DNA of 53,359 nt from Gemmata sp. Lineage in GTDB: Bacteria; Planctomycetota; Planctomycetia; Gemmatales; Gemmataceae. Where the stretch lies: the NCBI GenBank assembly GCA_025055115.1, contig JANWYJ010000050.1, forward strand, positions 1 to 53,359, in the 5' to 3' direction. A program made the position numbers and the translations under genes. Below, piece after piece: positions 26,045 through 35,769 of this stretch (positions are counted from its first letter, which is position 1; the number at the start of each line of letters is the position of its first letter). The notes under the pieces are model-generated. The model saw only the letters and a list, made by a program, of their open reading frames with translations. It made no database searches and was not told where the DNA came from.

Positions 26045-28519
26045 TTACTGATTGAACAAGAAGGCTTTCGTGTTCAGTAACGCCCAGATGATGTTCTCAT
26101 AGGCGAGCTTCTTGTTCTTTTCGTGCTTGGCGATGTGTTCGAGGGCGCGTTGGAGCTTTTCCGGACTGGGTTTTTGCCCAGTCGCCAGGAGGAACAATTC
26201 CGTCACTTTCTCCGCGTCGGGCCGGGGGTCTTTCGCCAGCCGATCGGCGCGGCCGCCGGAGCGGGCGATTTTGTCCTGCACCTCTTGGCTATTGAGCAGA
26301 TGCAAAGTCATCGCCAGGCTGGCCTCATTGACCCGTTCACACTCACAGGCGCTGATGCGCTGCGGACGGCCACTGACATCGAGGAAATAGGAGGCGAACG
26401 ATTCATCTGGCAGCATGATGGCCCGATTGGGGGCGAAGGTGTCGGTCGGCAGACCGGGAAAGCTTGTCGGGCTGTCGGTGAGTTTCGCCACCGCGTCGAA
26501 GAGGACTTCGGCTTGCAGCCGTTTGGGGTAGTAGCGGGCGAAGGATTGTTTGTCGCCCTTGTTGAATTCATTCGGTTCGCTGGAGAGTTGGTAGGTGCGG
26601 CTTTTGCAGATCGTTTTGATCAGGGCTTTGAGGCTGTAGCCGTTGTCAATGAGGTTCTGCGCCAGGGCGTCGAGCAACTCAGGGTTACTTGGCGGGTTGG
26701 TGATGCGCATATCATCGAGCGGATCGACGATACCGCGGCCGAAGAAGTGGGCCCAGTAGCGGTTGGCCACAGTTTTGGCAAAGAAGGGGTTTTTGGGGTT
26801 GGTGAGCCACTCTGCGAACTTCGCTCGCGGGTCTTCATCGGCACCGGCGGTGAGGGGGTCGGCATCGAGTGGCTTCATCGGCGCCGGTTGGCCGCTGCGT
26901 TTATTCTGCACGGTGCCGCTCGATTTCACATACAGAACCTGCTTTTGATTCTGTTGGTTCTGATTGGCAACCCCCGGAGTCGGAACTGTCTTGAAAGCGA
27001 CGCGGGCAAAGAACGCGGCCACCCCCCAATAATCGTCCTGGCCCCATTTTTCATACGGATGATGGTGGCAGTTGGCACAGGCCAATCGCTGGCCGAGGAA
27101 AACCTGGCTGACATCGTCTACGAACTGTTCCGGTGTGCGCACTTCCTTGTACCAGACGGTGGGCGGGGATTTACTCTCATCACCAATTGCGCAGAGGATG
27201 TCGCGGACGAATTGGTCATAGGGTTTATCGGCGGCGATGGCTTCGCGGATCCAGGTGTGGAAGGCGAAGGTACCATAGGCCCGGTTGGCCTGGTTGCGGC
27301 GTTTGACGCGGAGAACATCGGCCCACTTGTTGGCAAAGAAGTAGGCATACTCGGGAGTTTCGATCAAGCGATCGACGAGCTTATCCCGTTTGGCCGGGTC
27401 GCGATCGGCTACGAAGGCGAGAACCTCCTTGGCATCCGGCAAAGTGCCCGTAATGTCGAGGAAGACCCGGCGGATGAAGATTTCGTCGCTGCAGAGTTCG
27501 GAAGGGGCGATGTTCAGTTCGCGCCACTTTTTCGCGGTGAATTGGTCGACGAGCGTTTGTGCAGGAAATTCAAACCGCACAGGATCGCCCGCCCGGGGAA
27601 CTGTCACGTTGAAGACCGTTACATGTCCGTTGAAACGGGCCATGATCGCGGCCTGACCGGTGAGCGTCAGCGTTTGCACCAAGCCGGTTTCGCTGACGGT
27701 GGCGATGTCGGTGTCGTTGCTCTCATATTGCGCGCGCCGGGTGATGTCCTCCGTGGTGCCATCGCTGTAATGAGCATACACCGCCAGTTGTTGGCGGCTT
27801 TGGCGATCCACGACGCGAGCGGGCGGATGGACGCTGATCCGCGTCACCACCGGATCGTGAGGGCTTCCGTAGGGCATACCCGAGGCGATCCAGCGGCGGA
27901 CAATTTTGTACTCTTCGCTCTCCGGCTCCATCTTTTTGCCACCGCCATGAGCCACTTGGCCCGTAGCTTTGGTCAGGATGAGACTTTTCTCGGGCGCGGC
28001 GGGAAAGACGCGCCGGCCGCGCGTTTCCTTCAGTAAGTTGTCGTAATCAAACTGGGGATCGAAGCCCAACAGCGAGAGCCGGAAACCATTCTGACCGGCG
28101 ATCTTGCCGTGGCAACCGCCCGACGAACAGCTCAGTTTGGTGAAAATTGGGTTCACCTGATTGGGGAAGTTCAACGGCAACGGCGCTTCCATCTTTTCCG
28201 CCACCAGCGGAATCTGCACGGTGTGGCCTTCGTAAGTCACGTGTATTTCGGTCGTGCCATTAGCCAGGGGATAGACCCGGCCGGTGGCATCGACGCGGGC
28301 AATGGTGGCATCGCGAACGCTGTAGCGTGCTGCTGCCGTCAGATCAACGAGCCGGCCATCGGCGCGGGTCCCGGTGATCACCAATTGCGGGGCATCATCG
28401 GTGCCGCGGAGTGTCAATTTCGCCGGGTAAGCCGAGATTGCCGTCACGGACGCCCCAGCCGCCAACGCCACGGGGGCCAGGAAACCCAAGCTCAAGGCTG
28501 TGAATATGAATCGAATCAT
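26045..28519 (-). CDS. DUF1549/DUF1553 protein with Big_2 domains, second copy
   Basis: This 824-residue protein has the same plan as the protein at 3509: signal peptide (FTALSLGFLAPVALAAGA), Big_2 domain (about 25-110), a cytochrome-like segment with CSSGGCHGK (CxxxCH, about residue 133), a second Big_2 domain (about 220-310), DUF1549 with IRRVFLDITGTLPD and CANCHHHPYEKW (CxxCH), and DUF1553 ending KAFLFNQ. The two are clearly paralogues, but with many differences throughout, so the split is old. The ATG is preceded by AAGGGC. It is the second gene of a pair with the DUF1501 gene, separated by 117 bases that contain a strong hairpin. Confidence 0.92.
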   Translation of the reverse strand: MIRFIFTALSLGFLAPVALAAGASVTAISAYPAKLTLRGTDDAPQLVITGTRADGRLVDLTAAARYSVRDATIARVDATGRVYPLANGTTEIHVTYEGHTVQIPLVAEKMEAPLPLNFPNQVNPIFTKLSCSSGGCHGKIAGQNGFRLSLLGFDPQFDYDNLLKETRGRRVFPAAPEKSLILTKATGQVAHGGGKKMEPESEEYKIVRRWIASGMPYGSPHDPVVTRISVHPPARVVDRQSRQQLAVYAHYSDGTTEDITRRAQYESNDTDIATVSETGLVQTLTLTGQAAIMARFNGHVTVFNVTVPRAGDPVRFEFPAQTLVDQFTAKKWRELNIAPSELCSDEIFIRRVFLDITGTLPDAKEVLAFVADRDPAKRDKLVDRLIETPEYAYFFANKWADVLRVKRRNQANRAYGTFAFHTWIREAIAADKPYDQFVRDILCAIGDESKSPPTVWYKEVRTPEQFVDDVSQVFLGQRLACANCHHHPYEKWGQDDYWGVAAFFARVAFKTVPTPGVANQNQQNQKQVLYVKSSGTVQNKRSGQPAPMKPLDADPLTAGADEDPRAKFAEWLTNPKNPFFAKTVANRYWAHFFGRGIVDPLDDMRITNPPSNPELLDALAQNLIDNGYSLKALIKTICKSRTYQLSSEPNEFNKGDKQSFARYYPKRLQAEVLFDAVAKLTDSPTSFPGLPTDTFAPNRAIMLPDESFASYFLDVSGRPQRISACECERVNEASLAMTLHLLNSQEVQDKIARSGGRADRLAKDPRPDAEKVTELFLLATGQKPSPEKLQRALEHIAKHEKNKKLAYENIIWALLNTKAFLFNQ

Positions 28520-28562
28520 GGCTGATGCCCTTACAGCGGACGAAGTGGGTGGGGGGTGGGTA

Positions 28563-28594
28563 CCAGCAGGGGGCGTTTGACCGCCCCCTGCTGG
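28563..28594. promoter_or_regulatory. Perfect 13-bp hairpin between the DUF1501 and DUF1549 genes
   Basis: ccagcagggggcg (28563-28575) is exactly complementary to cgccccctgctgg (28582-28594) with a six-base loop, tttgac. It sits in the leader of the DUF1549/DUF1553 gene, 44 bases upstream of its ATG. On the minus strand the stem is followed by a C-rich stretch, not T's, so it is not a standard terminator; an mRNA-stability or processing element is possible. Confidence 0.85.
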
Positions 28595-28611
28595 CTTGGG
28601 AATGATGATTA

Positions 28612-28651
28612 TTGTATCAGCCCAACAGTTCTTGTATCAGCCCAACAGCTC
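28612..28651. repeat. 20-bp tandem duplication of the DUF1501 gene end
   Basis: ttgtatcagcccaacagttc (28612-28631) and ttgtatcagcccaacagctc (28632-28651) differ at one base. The right-hand copy encodes the C-terminal Glu-Leu-Leu-Gly and TGA of the DUF1501 protein on the minus strand; the left copy repeats that gene end immediately downstream, stop included. Confidence 0.95.
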
Positions 28652-29926
28652 TTTGACCGGTTCGCGGTCGTCCAGGATGTACATAGGTCGGCCCGAGCCA
28701 TTGGTGAAGGTCAGGCTGGGGTCGATGCCGATGGCGTGATAGATCGTACTGAGGACGCGCTGCACGCTCAGAGGGTTGTCCTTGGGGCGTTCACCTTTGG
28801 CGGTGCTGGCACCCACCGCCTGGCCCATGCGCAGGCCACCGCCGGCGATGAGGGCACTCATCACCGGGGCCCAGTGGTCGCGGCCGGCGTTGTTGTTCAC
28901 CTTCGGCGTGCGGCCAAATTCGCCCCACATGATCGTGACAACGTCATCTTGCATGCCGCGGTCGTGCAGGTCCTGGATCAGATTGGCGATGCCTTTATCC
29001 ACCATTGGCAATTGCCGTTTGAGAGTGGTGAAGTTATTGCCGTGTGTATCCCAACCGCCGATACTGAGAGTCACGCAGCCGACCCCGGCTTCGATCAAGC
29101 GCCGAGCCGTGAGGAACTGTTCAACGCCCTTGTAGCGGTCACGGGTCTTCTCATCTTCCTTGCGAAGGTCCAAAGCGTCGCGAACGACACCGGCCGTGAC
29201 CATTTCGAGGGCTTTTTCGGTATAAGCATCCATGCCGATCATGGTGCCCGAGGCATCGATTTCACGCCGGGTATCGTCAAATTGATCCAACAGGCTCTTC
29301 CGTTCATCGAGGCGGTCGATGGTAACGCCATTGGCCAGGCGAAGGTTCTGAATACCCGGACCACTGGGGGTAAAGGGACGGTGAGCAATCCCCAGATAGC
29401 CCGGCTCCGTGCCACGGCTCATGCCACGCAGGCTCACAAAAGGCGGGACTGCGCCTTGGTCGCCGGCACGCAATTTGGAAACCACCGACCCAAAGCTCGG
29501 GTGGTCGGCCGTGCGGTTGACCCGTTCTGGATAACCGGTCATGACCAAGGAGTCGGAGTGTTCATCGACGGAGACGATCGACCGGATGCAAGCCAATTTG
29601 TCCCACATCTTGGCTTGAAGGGGGAAATGTTCGCAAATTTGCACTCCCGGTACGTTGGTGGCAATCGGGTTGAATTCGCCGCGGAATTCTTTCGGGGCAT
29701 CGGGCTTGAGGTCGTACATATCCATGTGCGAGGGGCCGCCCGGCAGGTAGATCATGATGGCCGATTTCTTCGAGCGGCTCGGTTGTTTCTTCCCAGCGGC
29801 AGCCGCTGCCCGGTACCGTAGTAGGTCGGCGAGCGTCAAGGCTGTGCCGAACGCCCCGATTTGCAGAAAATCGCGCCGCGTGGCGCCATCACAAAACCGA
29901 TGCGACGAACCCAGAATCCGCAACAT
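28637..29926 (-). CDS. DUF1501 protein (Tat-exported), paired copy
   Basis: This 429-residue protein has a Tat signal (TRRDFLQIGAFGTALTLADL) followed by the family blocks AIMIYLPGGPSHMDMYDLKP, EQFLTARRLIEAGVGCVTL with GGWDTHGNNF, and MWGEFGRTPKVNNNAGRDHW. It is paired with the downstream DUF1549/DUF1553 gene, as at 6189/3509, and the two probably act together, although their substrate is unknown. GAGG lies eight bases before the ATG at 29926. The promoter should lie in the 237-bp gap shared with the divergent STM4013-like gene. Its last codons are duplicated downstream of the stop. Confidence 0.92.
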   Translation of the reverse strand: MLRILGSSHRFCDGATRRDFLQIGAFGTALTLADLLRYRAAAAAGKKQPSRSKKSAIMIYLPGGPSHMDMYDLKPDAPKEFRGEFNPIATNVPGVQICEHFPLQAKMWDKLACIRSIVSVDEHSDSLVMTGYPERVNRTADHPSFGSVVSKLRAGDQGAVPPFVSLRGMSRGTEPGYLGIAHRPFTPSGPGIQNLRLANGVTIDRLDERKSLLDQFDDTRREIDASGTMIGMDAYTEKALEMVTAGVVRDALDLRKEDEKTRDRYKGVEQFLTARRLIEAGVGCVTLSIGGWDTHGNNFTTLKRQLPMVDKGIANLIQDLHDRGMQDDVVTIMWGEFGRTPKVNNNAGRDHWAPVMSALIAGGGLRMGQAVGASTAKGERPKDNPLSVQRVLSTIYHAIGIDPSLTFTNGSGRPMYILDDREPVKELLG

Positions 29927-30163: not shown

Positions 30164-30970
30164 ATGCTCAACGCCAAGGCTCTCATCGGTCACTACGACA
30201 TTCTTTTCATCACTCTCGACACACTCCGCTACGATGTAGCCGTCCAGCTTTATCGCGCCCAGCGCACCCCCAACCTGGCCCGGGTGCTTCCCTCTGCCGG
30301 TTGGGAAAAGCGCCATACACCAGGGAACTTTACCTTCGCCGCCCATGCCGCGTTTTTTGCCGGTTTCTGGCCCACACCGGCTGAACCAGGCCAACATCCG
30401 CGCCTCTTCGCCCTCCGATTTCCCGGCAGCGAAACCACGACCGAACAGACGGCCGTTTTCGATGCCCCGGACATCATCACGGGGCTTCGCCACTGCGGCT
30501 ACCATACCATCTGCATCGGCGGTGTCGGCTTTTTTAACAAGCAAACCCCTTTGGGGAATGTTCTGCCAGCCTTGTTCGACGAAAGTTATTGGGCGCCGGA
30601 ATTGGGGGTCACGGAACCCCGCTCGACCGACCATCAAGTCGCTTTGGCTTTGCAATGTGTGGCCGCATTGCCCCCCCAGCAACGGATCGTCCTTTTTCTC
30701 AATGTTTCCGCCATCCATCAGCCCAACCGTTTTTATCTCCCCGGGGCTAGCCACGACACGTTGGCATCCCATGCGGCTGCGTTGGAATACGTCGATGGTC
30801 CGTTGGGGCGATTGTTGGCCGCTCTGCAGCAGCGTTCCTCGTGGTTATGTATCGTAACCTCAGACCACGGAACAGCTTACGGCGAAGACGGCTACTATGG
30901 CCACCGCTTGGCCCATCCAGTGGTCTGGGAAGTGCCCTACGCGGAATTTGTGTTGCGAAAGGATGAATAA
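30164..30970 (+). CDS. STM4013/SEN3800-like hydrolase, alkaline-phosphatase/sulfatase superfamily
   Basis: This 268-residue cytoplasmic protein has the metal-binding start ILFITLDTLRYD (Asp19), the segment TPGNFTFAAHAAFFAGFWPT where sulfatases carry their catalytic Cys or Ser, and SDHGTAYGEDGYYGH near residue 233 for the second metal set. No CxPxR or SxPxR sulfatase signature exists, so formylglycine chemistry is unlikely; Thr or another residue may be the nucleophile. It is short for a sulfatase. It is the first gene of a five-gene cluster and its TAA overlaps the ATG of the next gene by one base. Similarity to the STM4013 family is judged from length, motifs and gene order. Confidence 0.82.
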   Translation: MLNAKALIGHYDILFITLDTLRYDVAVQLYRAQRTPNLARVLPSAGWEKRHTPGNFTFAAHAAFFAGFWPTPAEPGQHPRLFALRFPGSETTTEQTAVFDAPDIITGLRHCGYHTICIGGVGFFNKQTPLGNVLPALFDESYWAPELGVTEPRSTDHQVALALQCVAALPPQQRIVLFLNVSAIHQPNRFYLPGASHDTLASHAAALEYVDGPLGRLLAALQQRSSWLCIVTSDHGTAYGEDGYYGHRLAHPVVWEVPYAEFVLRKDE

Positions 30971-32328
30971 TGATCGCGACGCAACCTCATCCGGTGCTGC
31001 AATCCAGCCCCTATCGGGGTTATGTTTATGCTTATCCCCATAAGACCGCGTACCGGTCCTTGCCACCCCGGCCACTGCGTGAGGTGTGGGCGAACGAAGA
31101 CCAACGCCACCTCTTTCTGTACATCCACATCCCCTTTTGCACCATGCGCTGCGGGTTTTGCAACCTCTTCGCCACCGCCCAACCGCACCGCGACTTGGTG
31201 TCGTGGTATCTCGAAGCCCTCAACCAACACGCCCAAGCCGTCCGCAACGCGATCCCCGACGCACACTTTGCCCGTTTCGCCGTAGGTGGTGGTACACCTA
31301 CTTACTTGAGCGTTGCGGAGTTAGCCCAGCTTTTTGAGCGGGTGAAGACGGTGATGGGTGTCGACCCCAGCGCGGTTCCAACCAGCATCGAGTGTTCTCC
31401 CGACACACTCACCGCGGAGAAAGTGCAACTGTTCCAATCATGGGGCGTGGAGCGTGTCAGCATCGGCATACAGTCGTTTGTGGAATCGGAAACGGTCAAT
31501 TGCGGTCGTCCGCAAAGGCGAGCCACGGTGGATGCGGCCCTGAGGTTGTTGGCCGATGCCCAATTCCCGGTATTGAACCTCGATTTGATCTATGGTCTTC
31601 CAGGGCAAACGGTTGATTCGTGGCGGTATTCCGTTGACGAGGCCTTGCGCTACCGGCCGCAGGAGTTGTATCTTTACCCGTTATATGTTCGCCCGCTGAC
31701 GGGTTTGGGGCGTTCACGCAAAGATGGGGCCGATCTCCGTCTGGCCTGTTACCGCGCCGCCCGTGACCATCTTTTGGACAACGGCTATGAACAACTGTCG
31801 ATGCGGATGTTCCGACGCCGGCCGAATCCCAGAACCCAAAGCGACCTAACTTCATCACGAAACGATACTTCCGCCAAACCCCACTACTGCTGCCAAAACG
31901 ATGGCATGGTCGGGTTGGGTTGTGGGGCACGCTCCTACACCCGCAGTTTGCACTACTCCTTCGATTACGCTGTTCAACCCCGCGGTATTAAGAGCATCAT
32001 TGCCGACTACTTATCGCGCCGCCCCGCGGAACTGGCCCAAGCTGAACACGGTTTTGTACTGAATCACGATGAGCAGAAGCGGCGCTACTTGCTGCAATCG
32101 ATCCTCAACACAGAGGGTCTCGACATCGTCCAGTATGAGCAACGCTTTGGCAGCGACCCATCCGACGACTTCCCCGACCTCGACATCTTCGCCGAACTGG
32201 GACTTCTGACGTTCGACGGCCATCGGTGGCAACCGACGGCGTTAGGTCTGGAACGCTCCGACGCGATGGGTCCGTGGTTCTTCTCCGAACAGGTTCGGCA
32301 ATTGATGGCGGAGTATGTAGCCCAATGA
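30970..32328 (+). CDS. STM4012-like radical SAM protein (HemN/HemW-type fold)
   Basis: This 452-residue protein has the radical SAM cluster motif C57xxxC61xxC64 in YIHIPFCTMRCGFCNLF, the SAM-binding VGGGTPTYL and IGIQSF blocks and a HemN-like TIM barrel. It resembles HemW/HemN, but the C-terminal region with NDGMVGLGCGARSYTRSLHYS and its cluster context fit the STM4012 family, so coproporphyrinogen oxidase activity should not be assumed. It probably catalyses a radical step on a peptide, cofactor or metabolite that is unknown. It overlaps its neighbours by one and four bases (TAATG and ATGA), which indicates translational coupling. Confidence 0.88.
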   Translation: MIATQPHPVLQSSPYRGYVYAYPHKTAYRSLPPRPLREVWANEDQRHLFLYIHIPFCTMRCGFCNLFATAQPHRDLVSWYLEALNQHAQAVRNAIPDAHFARFAVGGGTPTYLSVAELAQLFERVKTVMGVDPSAVPTSIECSPDTLTAEKVQLFQSWGVERVSIGIQSFVESETVNCGRPQRRATVDAALRLLADAQFPVLNLDLIYGLPGQTVDSWRYSVDEALRYRPQELYLYPLYVRPLTGLGRSRKDGADLRLACYRAARDHLLDNGYEQLSMRMFRRRPNPRTQSDLTSSRNDTSAKPHYCCQNDGMVGLGCGARSYTRSLHYSFDYAVQPRGIKSIIADYLSRRPAELAQAEHGFVLNHDEQKRRYLLQSILNTEGLDIVQYEQRFGSDPSDDFPDLDIFAELGLLTFDGHRWQPTALGLERSDAMGPWFFSEQVRQLMAEYVAQ

Positions 32329-33230
32329 ACCTTTCCATCCTCTATCGCGGGCCGCTCTCCAGTTGCAACTACGCTTGCCCCTACTGCCCCTTCGCCAAAC
32401 GCCGGGAAACTCCGGCCGAGCTGGCCTACGATCGTCGCTGCCTGGAGCGATTTGTCAGCTGGGTCGCGACCCGGACTGGCGATTCTATTGGCGTGTTGTT
32501 CACCCCCTGGGGGGAGGCCCTGATACGCAAATGGTACCAATCGGCGCTGGTCACTCTCTCATCGCTTCCTCATGTCCGCAAAGCCGCGATCCAAACCAAC
32601 CTTTCGTGCCAGCTCGACTGGGTCGACGCCTGCGATAAGGCGAAGTTAGCCCTGTGGTGCACCTTTCACCCCGGGGAAACTTCCCGGGAACGATTTCTGG
32701 CACAATGTCGGGTGTTGCTCCAGCGTGGGGTCCGTTTCAGCGTTGGTGTGGTGGGGTTGAAGGAACATCTTGCGGAGATAGAAGCGTTGCGTCGCGAATT
32801 ACCGGCCGAAGTGTATCTGTGGGTCAACGCCTACAAACGACAGCGCGAGTACTACACCCCCGAAATGATCGCCGATCTCACACGGATCGACCCGCTCTTT
32901 CCATTGAACAACACGTTTCATGCCAGCCGCGGCCACTCCTGCCGCGCAGGGGCGAGCGTTATTGCGGTCGATGGCGAAGGCACCATCCGCCGCTGTCACT
33001 TCATACCTACGCCCATCGGCAATATCTACGACCCCAATTTTGCGGACAGCCTCTACGAACGACCTTGTACCAACGACACTTGCGGTTGCCACATCGGCTA
33101 CGTTCATCTCGATCGCCTGAAGTTGTATGACACCTTCGGCGACGGCGTTCTGGAACGAATCCCGTACGGTTTTGGCGAATCCAAACCCTTTCTGGAGAAC
33201 CTTTCTCATGCGCACCTTTCAACTGAGTGA
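32325..33230 (+). CDS. STM4011-like radical SAM protein with a C-terminal SPASM-like cysteine cluster
   Basis: This 301-residue protein has the radical SAM motif C14xxxC18xxC21 ([12 protein letters not shown]) very near its N-terminus. Five further cysteines lie near the C-terminus (Cys206, 224, 248, 253 and 255; [22 protein letters not shown]), a SPASM- or twitch-like arrangement that could bind an auxiliary iron-sulfur cluster. Proteins with that arrangement often modify peptides. It starts in an ATGA overlap with the STM4012-like gene and itself overlaps the next gene by 23 bases. The STM4011 assignment rests on motif layout and gene order. Confidence 0.85.
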
Positions 33231-34635
33231 TGCCAAAAGCCATAAGTTCTGGAATATCGACGTCCAGGGCCATCGTTTCACCGTCAGCTTTGGCAAAATC
33301 GGCACGGCCGGCCAGAGCCAGACGAAAACCTTCGCCTCGGCCGAAGAAGCCCAAAAGGAAGCCGAGAAACTGATTCGCGAAAAGCTCAAAAAAGGCTACG
33401 TGGAAACGACCCCCCAACCCCCCGCGTCCACCGAAGAAGCCTTCATCCGCGCTTTGCAGAGTAACCCTCACGATCTGGCCGGCTGGTGCGCTTATGCCGA
33501 TTGGCTGGTGGAACAAGGTGATCCCCGCGGCGAGTTTATGCGCGTTCAGATCGCCCTTGAAGATGAGAACCTCCCGAAAGCCCAACGGGATAAACTCCAG
33601 AGGAAAGAAGCGGCCTTATTGAAAAAATATGAAAAAGAGTGGGTTGGAGCGTGGGCCGATTTCGTGGCCGCCCCAACCGACACGGAAGGTGGCGGGCAGA
33701 TCAACCACACAGGGGGGCGGAAGTACGAGTTCAAACGCGGCGTTCTGACAACGGTCAATTTCGGCCAACTGACCCTCCCAGCCGCTCAGGCCTTCGTCCA
33801 AGCTCCGGAAACACGCTTCGTTCGGGAATTGTTCATCGGTGATACCTGGGCGGACGATGACGTGGAACGCCCCTCGGGATTGCCCGACGATGCCGACATC
33901 TCGGAAGCTCCTCTCTACATCCTCCTCCGCTGGCCCTATCTCCGCTATGTTCGCCGCTTCCAATTCGGCTGGCTCGCCGACGAGGACTACGACGACTTCT
34001 GCCACTTCCAATGTCACTTGAACGGTGCACTAGTCTACGATTTTGTCAAACAAATGCCCGATGTCGAAGAACTACTGATCTTCGCCCACACCCGCGAAGA
34101 GGCGAATAAGATCGCTCGGCTCAAGCTACCCCATCTCCGCGTCCTGCAACTGTATCACGGATGGAATATTCCCCTGGAAACTTTGGCCAAGAACGATTCT
34201 CTCACCAACCTCACGGCCCTGCTGTGTCATCCCCATGCCTTGGAGTACGGCGACCAGCCGTACATCCAATTGGCCGGGCTGAGAGCCATCTGCCGTTCCC
34301 CCTACCTTCCAAAGTTGACTCACCTCCGGTTGCGGCTGGCTGATTTTGGCGACCGTGGCGTGACGGAAATTATCGCCAGTGGTATACTTCAACGCCTGAA
34401 GGTTCTCGACTTACGCCACGGCTGCATCACGGACCGCGGCGCTCAAGCCCTGGCGGCCTGTCCGGAACTGAAGAATCTCGAACATCTCGACCTGTCGCGT
34501 AATACCATCACCGAAGTGGGCGAAGAAGCCCTCCGCAAAACCGGCGTATCGGTCAACCTGGAATATCAACATCGCGAAACGACCATCGACCCCGACAACG
34601 ACCCCGAATTCCTCATGCAAGGCGACTATGAGTAG
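33208..34635 (+). CDS. WGR, TIGR02996 and leucine-rich-repeat protein (STM4015-like position)
   Basis: This 475-residue protein has a WGR domain (about residues 1-75, [20 protein letters not shown] and GKIGTAGQ), a TIGR02996 repeat-companion domain (about 76-115, [20 protein letters not shown] and [20 protein letters not shown]), then leucine-rich repeats of the RNI type (about 300-460, [19 protein letters not shown] and [19 protein letters not shown]). WGR domains bind DNA or nucleoprotein in other proteins, and TIGR02996 is common in planctomycetes. The gene lies inside the STM-type cluster, overlapping the radical SAM gene by 23 bases and ending six bases before the ATP-grasp gene. It may act as the cluster's recognition or scaffold protein. 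Confidence 0.82.
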
Positions 34636-34641
34636 CTGGTC

Positions 34642-35769
34642 ATGCGCCTGGTGATGATCGCCAATCCTGGCACAAAACGCTGCGAATTTTTCCGCCACCA
34701 GGCCGCTGCCTGGAAGGGCGAACTGACGCTGGAGGTGGTGCCGTGGGCCGAAGTGATTGCCCGCGATGGCTGTCTTGACGACCTGGCTCCGTTCGATGCG
34801 CCCGCCATCGTGCGGCTCGAATCGCCCGGCAAAGACGATACAGTAACCCGGCTTTTACTCGAAGCTGGTGTCCGCGATAATCCCACTGAGCCTGCTTGGG
34901 ATTGGCGCGCACAAACTCTGCCGAAAGGCCTGCTACTGCGCCCGGGGTTGCTGTACCGCGGTTTCCGCCGCGTGTTGCGAGGGCTGCGTCAAGCCTTCGA
35001 AGCCCGGCCCCACCTCCGGCCAACCGCCTGCCCATTGGCCATCGCTGCCATGTTCGACAAAACCGTCACCGCGTGGAAGTTGAAACGCAGGGGGGTTCCC
35101 GTGCCACCCATGCTGCCCCCTGCTCCTGATAGCACGATATTCCTTCTGGAACTGAAAGAACTGGCCGATTGGCCACGGGTGTATGTGAAACTCAATACTG
35201 GTTCGTCGGCCACGGGGATGGTCGTTCTTCACATCCCTGCCGATGACACCCCGATTTGGGGATTGACCACTCTTCAGCAGATGGACGGCCAGTTTTACAA
35301 CACGCGCCGGGTGCGTACCATCCGCAATGCCGATCTTCAAGTGGCCCTACAATTTCTGTGGGATGAAGGCGTCATCATTCAACGAGGCATCCCGATGGCA
35401 CAGATCAATGGGCGGAATTTCGATGTCCGGGTGGTCTGTGTTTACGGACAACCGGTCGCGACCATCTTCCGCCTCAGCCATCTGCCGATCACGAACCTGC
35501 ATCTGGGTGGCCGCCGCGGCGACTATCGGTCGTGTCGGGCCACGATTCCTACCCGTGCCTGGTTGGATGCCCTAGATCATGCGAGCGAAGCCGCCCAGAG
35601 TTTCGATGCCGCTATCGCTGGTGTCGACCTCGTCTTCGAGTGCGGTTATCACCATCATTACATTCTCGAAGTGAACGCCTTTGGCGATTTCTTCCCCGGC
35701 TGGCTCGACCCCTCTGGCCGCTCGATTCCCCAAATCGAGTTGGACGCATTCGCTGAACGTTTAGCGTAA
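34642..35769 (+). CDS. STM4014-like ATP-grasp family protein
   Basis: This 375-residue protein looks like an ATP-grasp ligase: an N-terminal Rossmann-like region (MRLVMIANPGTKRCEFF), the ATP-binding VYVKLNTGSSATGM (phosphate-loop-like, about residue 190), NFDVRVVCVYGQPV, and the metal-binding IAGVDLVFECGYHHHYILEV and NAFGDFFPG, similar to RimK- or D-Ala-D-Ala-ligase-type enzymes. It should join a carboxylate to an amine or thiol using ATP. It is the last gene of the tightly packed five-gene set and follows the WGR/LRR gene by six bases. An AAGGAGA follows before the DUF6807 gene, so transcription may continue. Confidence 0.85.
   Translation: MRLVMIANPGTKRCEFFRHQAAAWKGELTLEVVPWAEVIARDGCLDDLAPFDAPAIVRLESPGKDDTVTRLLLEAGVRDNPTEPAWDWRAQTLPKGLLLRPGLLYRGFRRVLRGLRQAFEARPHLRPTACPLAIAAMFDKTVTAWKLKRRGVPVPPMLPPAPDSTIFLLELKELADWPRVYVKLNTGSSATGMVVLHIPADDTPIWGLTTLQQMDGQFYNTRRVRTIRNADLQVALQFLWDEGVIIQRGIPMAQINGRNFDVRVVCVYGQPVATIFRLSHLPITNLHLGGRRGDYRSCRATIPTRAWLDALDHASEAAQSFDAAIAGVDLVFECGYHHHYILEVNAFGDFFPGWLDPSGRSIPQIELDAFAERLA

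Follow-up and report, generated by a model that had tools for sequence, protein, structure and literature searches.

The DNA analysed here, referred to as the window, is a stretch of 53,359 nucleotides from Gemmata sp., a planctomycete (GenBank assembly GCA_025055115.1, contig JANWYJ010000050.1). It carries a five-gene cluster of the STM4011-STM4015 type, in which two radical S-adenosylmethionine (SAM) proteins, an alkaline-phosphatase-superfamily hydrolase and the ATP-grasp protein STM4014 are encoded together with a leucine-rich repeat (LRR) protein. The main finding concerns the last residue of this LRR protein and its relatives, which was glutamate in 123 of 128 distinct STM4015-type proteins (117/122 of the classical type, and 6/6 of the WGR type found in the window). 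By comparison, a glutamate end was present in 8/374 of the STM4011-STM4014 enzymes of the same clusters (3/98, 1/92, 3/89 and 1/95), a contrast that is new, and in none of the five distinct LRR/TIGR02996 relatives encoded outside the cluster in the same genome as the window.

A terminal glutamate in STM4015-type proteins

On balance, we lean towards a reading in which the LRR protein is itself the substrate or carrier, STM4014 ligates a partner molecule to its last glutamate, and this end is then altered by the two radical SAM enzymes. The acidic tail would present a reactive C-terminal glutamate, which STM4014, as a LysX/RimK-like ligase, would activate with ATP and join to an amine, most likely an amino acid. 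STM4011 and STM4012, the radical SAM enzymes, would next modify the end of the tail or the residue joined there, and the metallohydrolase STM4013, with a HAD phosphatase in some other genomes, may remove a phosphate or sulfate ester during the sequence. What the data show are the five genes, the conserved end of the tail and its restriction to the LRR partner, the predicted fold class of STM4014, the co-occurrence of the families and a single case of co-inheritance; that an amine is joined to the glutamate, which amine this would be, and how and in what sequence the subsequent steps proceed are inferences. The terminal glutamate turns an orphan cluster into a precise question, namely whether this residue carries a modification, which enzyme adds it and what is added. 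If the reading is correct, large LRR proteins would join small zinc proteins under the logic of amino-group carriers, with radical SAM chemistry added. We raise more tentatively the possibility of a widespread and unrecognised carrier class, in which large LRR proteins would bear a growing molecule on the C-terminal glutamate; an ATP-grasp enzyme would load it and two radical SAM enzymes would remodel it. Such a class would range from planctomycetes and Streptomyces as far as Salmonella and some strains of E. coli.

The window protein (33208..34635, plus strand; 475 residues) occupies the place of STM4015 and comprises WGR (1.7e-20), TIGR02996 (53.9 bits) and LRR parts. Its C-terminal tail, residues 457-475 (34576..34632, plus strand), ends in Gly-Asp-Tyr-Glu (34621-34632), and all six proteins of the WGR type end in G-D-x-E. 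The classical tails follow the consensus RY-[VI]-A-V-[SGA]-E, with R conserved in 101, Y in 99, A in 91 and V in 98 of 122. The terminal glutamate is one of 21 invariant columns in a 39-row alignment, and the acidic tail preceding it is variable in length and in letters. In the last nine positions of the 128 tails, there was no invariant nucleophilic residue; most classical tails have S, G, A or T at position -2.

The pooled count was made from matches of at least 100 bits, with one protein retained per identical last 60 residues. The first survey gave 102/105 classical and 3/4 WGR-type proteins ending in glutamate among full-length open reading frames (ORFs), unfiltered. A further set, found by way of STM4014 genes lying beyond the first stretches and by way of one E. 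coli record, gave 10/11, and a third set from the paralogues of genome G402 was then pooled with these. The rows removed by the filter include L119 (37 bits, ending in Q), L112 (89 bits, ending in R) and L178 of G402 (50 bits, ending in Q). The terminal codon of the 123 glutamate-ending proteins was GAG in 82 and GAA in 41, followed by TGA (57), TAG (41) or TAA (25); as both codons vary, the constraint acts on the protein. Overlap with the next gene of the operon was considered as a source of the glutamate and rejected, because an ATGA overlap fixes only the last base of the codon, 82/123 proteins end in GAG, the stops vary, and in the window a gap of 6 bases follows the gene.

The survey comprised 97 loci. 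Besides the window, these were six of the 13 plasmid records found, ten planctomycete stretches, and the best 80 stretches of an alignment-driven scan of genome contigs, which gave at least 549 confirmed STM4011 relatives among at least 590 candidate stretches. Two or more STM4015-type copies were present in 26/97 loci, with a maximum of four (L062). These four lie in tandem (L062:2743-6693), and the first extends four residues beyond the usual glutamate. In genome G402, five scattered paralogues that score at least 100 bits bear the tail (three are classical and two belong to the WGR type), and weaker LRR matches lack it. One enzyme set thus often serves several carriers, judging from the multi-copy loci and the G402 paralogues. 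Together, the terminal glutamate, the tandem and scattered paralogues, and the co-inheritance with STM4014 described below point to the LRR protein as substrate or carrier, with no need for a separate small precursor.

STM4014 and the systems it resembles

STM4014 of the window (34642..35769, plus strand; 375 residues) matches NF038074 with 245.3 bits. In a 39-row alignment, K140, K183, D261, R263, R277, T284-N285-L286, D329, N345 and G348-D349 were invariant; the lysine, arginine, aspartate and asparagine residues are of a type that an active ATP-grasp enzyme should have, and their roles are putative. When the STM4014 profile was compared with solved structures, LysX (1uc8, 1uc9, 3vpd) came first and RimK followed, with E values of 1e-5 to 6e-5, and biotin carboxylase came next. 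The predicted model (predicted local distance difference test, pLDDT, 93.9) was closest in fold to ArgX complexed with LysW (3vpb; Z 23.2), LysX (22.8) and RimK (22.6-21.8). The superposition on ArgX/LysX gave a root-mean-square deviation of 2.9 over 273 aligned residues; RimK was tied, all lying within 1.4 Z. The graspetide-type ATP-grasp ligase PsnB with its precursor was also among the fold matches.

In one case, the ligase and the tail were seen to travel together. STM4014 of the window is 65% identical to that of L051 and 57% to that of L157, both with a G-D-x-E tail, and 36% identical to that of L052, which has a classical tail. In STM4011, STM4012 and STM4013, L052 is among the nearest relatives of the window, at 74, 65 and 72% identity. 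The trees were built by a quick method, with branch support from the Shimodaira-Hasegawa-like approximate likelihood ratio test (SH-aLRT) rather than the bootstrap. In the STM4014 tree (36 rows), the window, L051 and L157 form a clade with 100% SH-aLRT support and a long stem, and in the STM4011 tree L052 is placed among the genomes of the window, L051 and L157 at 99%. STM4014 and the tail type were co-inherited here as one replacement event, not many. Of the STM4014 columns conserved in 26 classical rows, 13 differ in both G-D-x-E rows, including 247, 249, 252, 350 and 351. A general match of the ligase clade to the WGR domain was considered and failed, as L083 does not follow it.

The closest known systems are those of LysX and ArgX, in which, according to two papers, the C-terminal glutamate of the carrier is covalently bonded to the amino group of the substrate (PMC10433800, PMC9303977). 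STM4014 has the same predicted fold as these ATP-grasp ligases, and its partner likewise has an acidic tail with a conserved C-terminal glutamate. The partner is, however, an LRR or WGR-LRR protein of ~280-475 residues, whereas LysW is a small zinc protein, and it ends in RY.AV.E or GD.E rather than the EDWGE of LysW (PMC10433800). Two radical SAM proteins and an alkaline-phosphatase-superfamily hydrolase are also added in the cluster, and the curated LysX model is missed. RimK, which shares the ATP-grasp fold, modifies a protein C-terminus, that of ribosomal protein S6 (RpsF; PMC7343187); this target is unrelated to the LRR protein, the RimK model is missed, and the cluster has the extra radical SAM enzymes. 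The pearlin pathway to 3-thia-amino acids builds an amino-acid product on a scaffold peptide and is likened by its authors to amino-group carriers (PMC9303977). In the cluster, the candidate ligase is an ATP-grasp protein, and no tRNA-dependent ligase family was matched among the five window proteins. Pearlins, in contrast, use a tRNA-dependent ligase. The clusters of Salmonella and E. coli have the same enzyme set and an STM4015 that ends in glutamate in both; they differ in gene order, and the window LRR protein adds WGR and TIGR02996 and a different tail.

In the literature searched, in which most subscription journals were not covered, a locus of the STM4011-STM4015 set was mentioned in two papers, in tables alone and with no function described, and searches with the STM and SEN names, DUF6745 and combinations of the families returned no description of the carrier idea. 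The available portions of two ATP-grasp surveys (PMC4431377, PMC8939145) do not describe this gene set.

Contrary points and rival explanations

Several observations weigh against the carrier reading. Five of the 128 proteins lack the glutamate end: those of L062 and L154 read past the motif, that of L170 is truncated, and that of L174 and one of the two L092 copies differ. G402 has both tail types and a single full-length STM4014, so the type of tail does not have to correspond to the type of ligase, and the WGR-bearing partner of L083 is paired with an STM4014 outside the window clade. Genome G401 has STM4014 and no STM4015 match. The sequence matches between STM4014 and LysX are weak (E ~1e-5; with fewer rows 1e-4 and LysX alone, RimK not reaching 0.001), and the curated models for LysX (TIGR02144, 24.8 of 275.6 bits) and RimK (TIGR00768, 25 of 143.4 bits) are failed. 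In the fold comparison, the inositol-pyrophosphate kinase PPIP5K2 (Z 21.4) is level with the lower-scoring RimK rows, closely followed by glutathione synthetase (20.3) and D-Ala-D-Ala ligases (about 19-20); the predicted fold leaves the reaction unfixed. The fold neighbours of STM4011 include small-molecule enzymes (BlsE, MoaA, viperin) alongside the SPASM/twitch peptide maturases. As 38 of the 97 loci are from actinomycetes, the loci are not independent samples. Finally, neither the proposed ligation nor the proposed modification of the LRR protein has been observed.

The tail might instead be a docking peptide, which would hold the enzymes, above all STM4014, on an unmodified LRR scaffold while the product is a free small molecule. 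We regard this as rather improbable, though likelier than the other alternatives. In its favour, the conserved residues that precede the glutamate in the classical tails resemble a docking motif, STM4011 resembles peptide and small-molecule enzymes alike, and the phosphatase partners fit a metabolite pathway. Against this, the two tail types have little in common except the last glutamate, a scaffold does not readily explain why one enzyme set has several carriers, and the best fold matches of STM4014 act at a protein C-terminal end. The presence of PsnB and its precursor among the fold matches and the acidity of the tail would suit a graspetide-like ribosomally synthesised and post-translationally modified peptide with a large precursor, in which STM4014 would link acidic residues of the tail, as an ester or amide, to a nucleophile of the same tail, and the radical SAM enzymes would add bonds. 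This is unlikely, since the last nine positions contain no invariant nucleophile and the window type ends in G-D-x-E.

The initial annotation had proposed a maturation pathway for a peptide or small metabolite, with the WGR/LRR protein serving recognition or control. A maturation pathway stays plausible; the role of the WGR/LRR protein shifts to substrate or carrier in view of the glutamate end, the paralogues and the co-inheritance with STM4014. A separate peptide or metabolite recognised or regulated by this protein is, in our estimate, doubtful. WGR and LRR are recognition-type domains, which would suit such a role, and a ~100-residue protein recurs with DUF6745 near the cluster elsewhere. 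This pair was not found in the window genome, in searches without a positive control that gave a signal, and so offers no general precursor, and a regulator has no obvious need for an invariant last residue or for tandem copies. A signal for degradation, sorting or stability, with no relation to the enzymes, is a very improbable role for the tail: a short C-terminal motif behind a variable acidic linker has the form of one, but STM4015 matches co-occur with STM4014 in planctomycetes, and the tail is absent from the five LRR relatives that the window genome encodes outside the cluster. The simplest account overall is a substrate or carrier protein that would be loaded at its last glutamate, in the manner of amino-group carrier systems, before radical SAM chemistry.

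Cluster genes, distribution and neighbours

The ORF coordinates reproduced the arrangement first described for the window, namely five plus-strand genes with overlaps of 1, 4 and 23 bases and a gap of 6 bases. Longer upstream starts are available to the third ORF (at 32226) and the fourth (at 33127). The families assigned to four of the genes were borne out by curated NCBIfam models, whose cut-offs are passed by STM4013 (418.4/250 bits), STM4012 (589.7/380), STM4011 (412.1/200) and STM4014 (245.3/175). The LRR protein reaches 67.8 of 275 bits against the STM4015 model (NF038076), in its LRR part only; having missed the cut-off, it is filed as STM4015-like and not as a member. The gene order, 4013-4012-4011-LRR-4014, is unlike the 4015-4014-4013-4012-4011 of the annotated Deinococcus, Streptomyces, Methylobacterium, Paenibacillus, Salmonella and E. 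coli records.

The STM4013/SEN3800 family hydrolase (30164..30970, plus strand; 268 residues) matches NF038075 and Sulfatase PF00884. In a 32-row alignment D19, T57, D234, H235 and H247 were invariant, and T57 is a candidate nucleophile by its position. The HemN-like STM4012 (30970..32328, plus strand; 452 residues) matches NF006067, Radical_SAM and HemN_C, with C57, C61 and C64 invariant in 38 rows. It is below the cut-offs of the curated HemN, HemW and HutW models (132.6/324.95, 133.6/205.4 and 139.8/400 bits). STM4011 (32325..33230, plus strand; 301 residues; NF038073) has invariant C14, C18 and C21 (CxxxCxxC) together with C206, C224, C248, C253 and C255 in 40 rows, which fits the radical SAM triad and C-terminal auxiliary-cluster cysteines of SPASM/twitch maturases; SPASM domain models gave no match in domain-model searches of the window protein. 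Its AlphaFold model (pLDDT 88.5) was nearest in fold to SkfB (Z 15.5), BlsE (14.9) and SuiB (14.8), which are tied, then MoaA (14.4), and anSME.

All five families were matched together in 76/97 loci, several others being cut by contig ends, and the arrangement is therefore not due to chance. The conserved neighbourhood anticipated by the initial annotation was accordingly found, and the profile searches placed none of the genes in unrelated known families such as true HemW. Going by record titles, full or nearly full sets occur in eleven phyla (Planctomycetota, Chloroflexota, Acidobacteriota, Cyanobacteriota, Myxococcota, Actinomycetota, Verrucomicrobiota, Bacteroidota, Deinococcota, Bacillota and Pseudomonadota). 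Within 392 genomes of Planctomycetota the distribution was patchy, with 12 matching STM4011, STM4014 and STM4015 together. The cut-offs were passed by STM4011 in 11/392, by STM4014 in 12/392, and by STM4015 in nine of the same 12, the window's own match being weak; in G191 a contig end truncates the STM4011 match. G048 (L023) has partial STM4011 and STM4014 matches near each other and no STM4015 match, and its cluster has probably decayed. A weak STM4014 match in G011 and a weak STM4015 match in G044 each stand without the other families.

Twelve genomes whose STM4011 stretch lacked a full STM4014 were followed up, representing 11 of the 17 loci with no STM4014 match and L092, which has a fragment only (L058, L075, L102 and L120 were left out). 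Eleven of the 12 carry one outside the stretch, some on the same contig, the exception being an Armatimonadetes metagenome bin. For L045 and L050, also lacking STM4014 in the stretch, the planctomycete scan found it in the genome. STM4011 was present in 154/5,426 E. coli genomes, every one chromosomal. A single-protein query of viral contigs, with a reach limited to close relatives, found no relative. A defence system was considered and rejected, as PADLOC matches were merely weak and partial.

Upstream of the window cluster, on the minus strand (26045-29926), lie genes for a DUF1549/DUF1553 protein and a DUF1501 protein; these and a DUF6807 protein that also flanks the cluster are unrelated to it. 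A regular further gene, as the initial annotation had suggested looking for, does recur elsewhere in the form of a HAD phosphatase and of a DUF6745/~100-residue pair, and none of these is among the genes of the window operon. The pair adjoins the cluster in several phyla (46 DUF6745 ORFs and 45 ORFs of the ~100-residue protein, termed sm, in the 97 loci, surveyed for ORFs of at least 60 residues), for example at L001:8897-10218, L002:1424-3046, L003:2316-3641 and L041:12677-14063, among others. DUF6745 has an LRR-like N-terminus, and sm has conserved GE.TGH.H and HxEH motifs, with no Pfam match in the three scanned and no resembling solved structure found by sequence search. The last residue was Asp in 44/44 complete sm ORFs and Thr in 44/46 DUF6745 ORFs, which is not taken as independent evidence because both lie within strongly conserved C-terminal stretches. 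Neither protein was found in the window genome, in searches for which no positive control gave a signal; their candidacy as a separate small precursor was rejected on this ground, and they are treated as accessory.

Clustering of neighbours returned mostly Streptomyces and Myxococcus synteny; of the families inspected, that of the HAD phosphatases was traced across phyla. Among the recurrent neighbours, most of whose families were left unscanned, no peptidase was recognised. A HAD phosphatase ORF was present in 18 searched loci (L043:11217-11888, L057:7211-7867, L095:7274-7903 and 15 more), and its nearest core ORF was STM4013 in 17. It was found beside STM4013 in planctomycete, myxobacterial, Akkermansia-titled and Chitinophaga records, and the enteric clusters of Salmonella and E. 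coli have an added gene for a Cof-type HAD hydrolase. At L005, where there was no STM4012 match and the STM4013 match was merely short, the Bacteroides STM4011 (L005:7965-9527) is fused to a HAD-type hydrolase domain.

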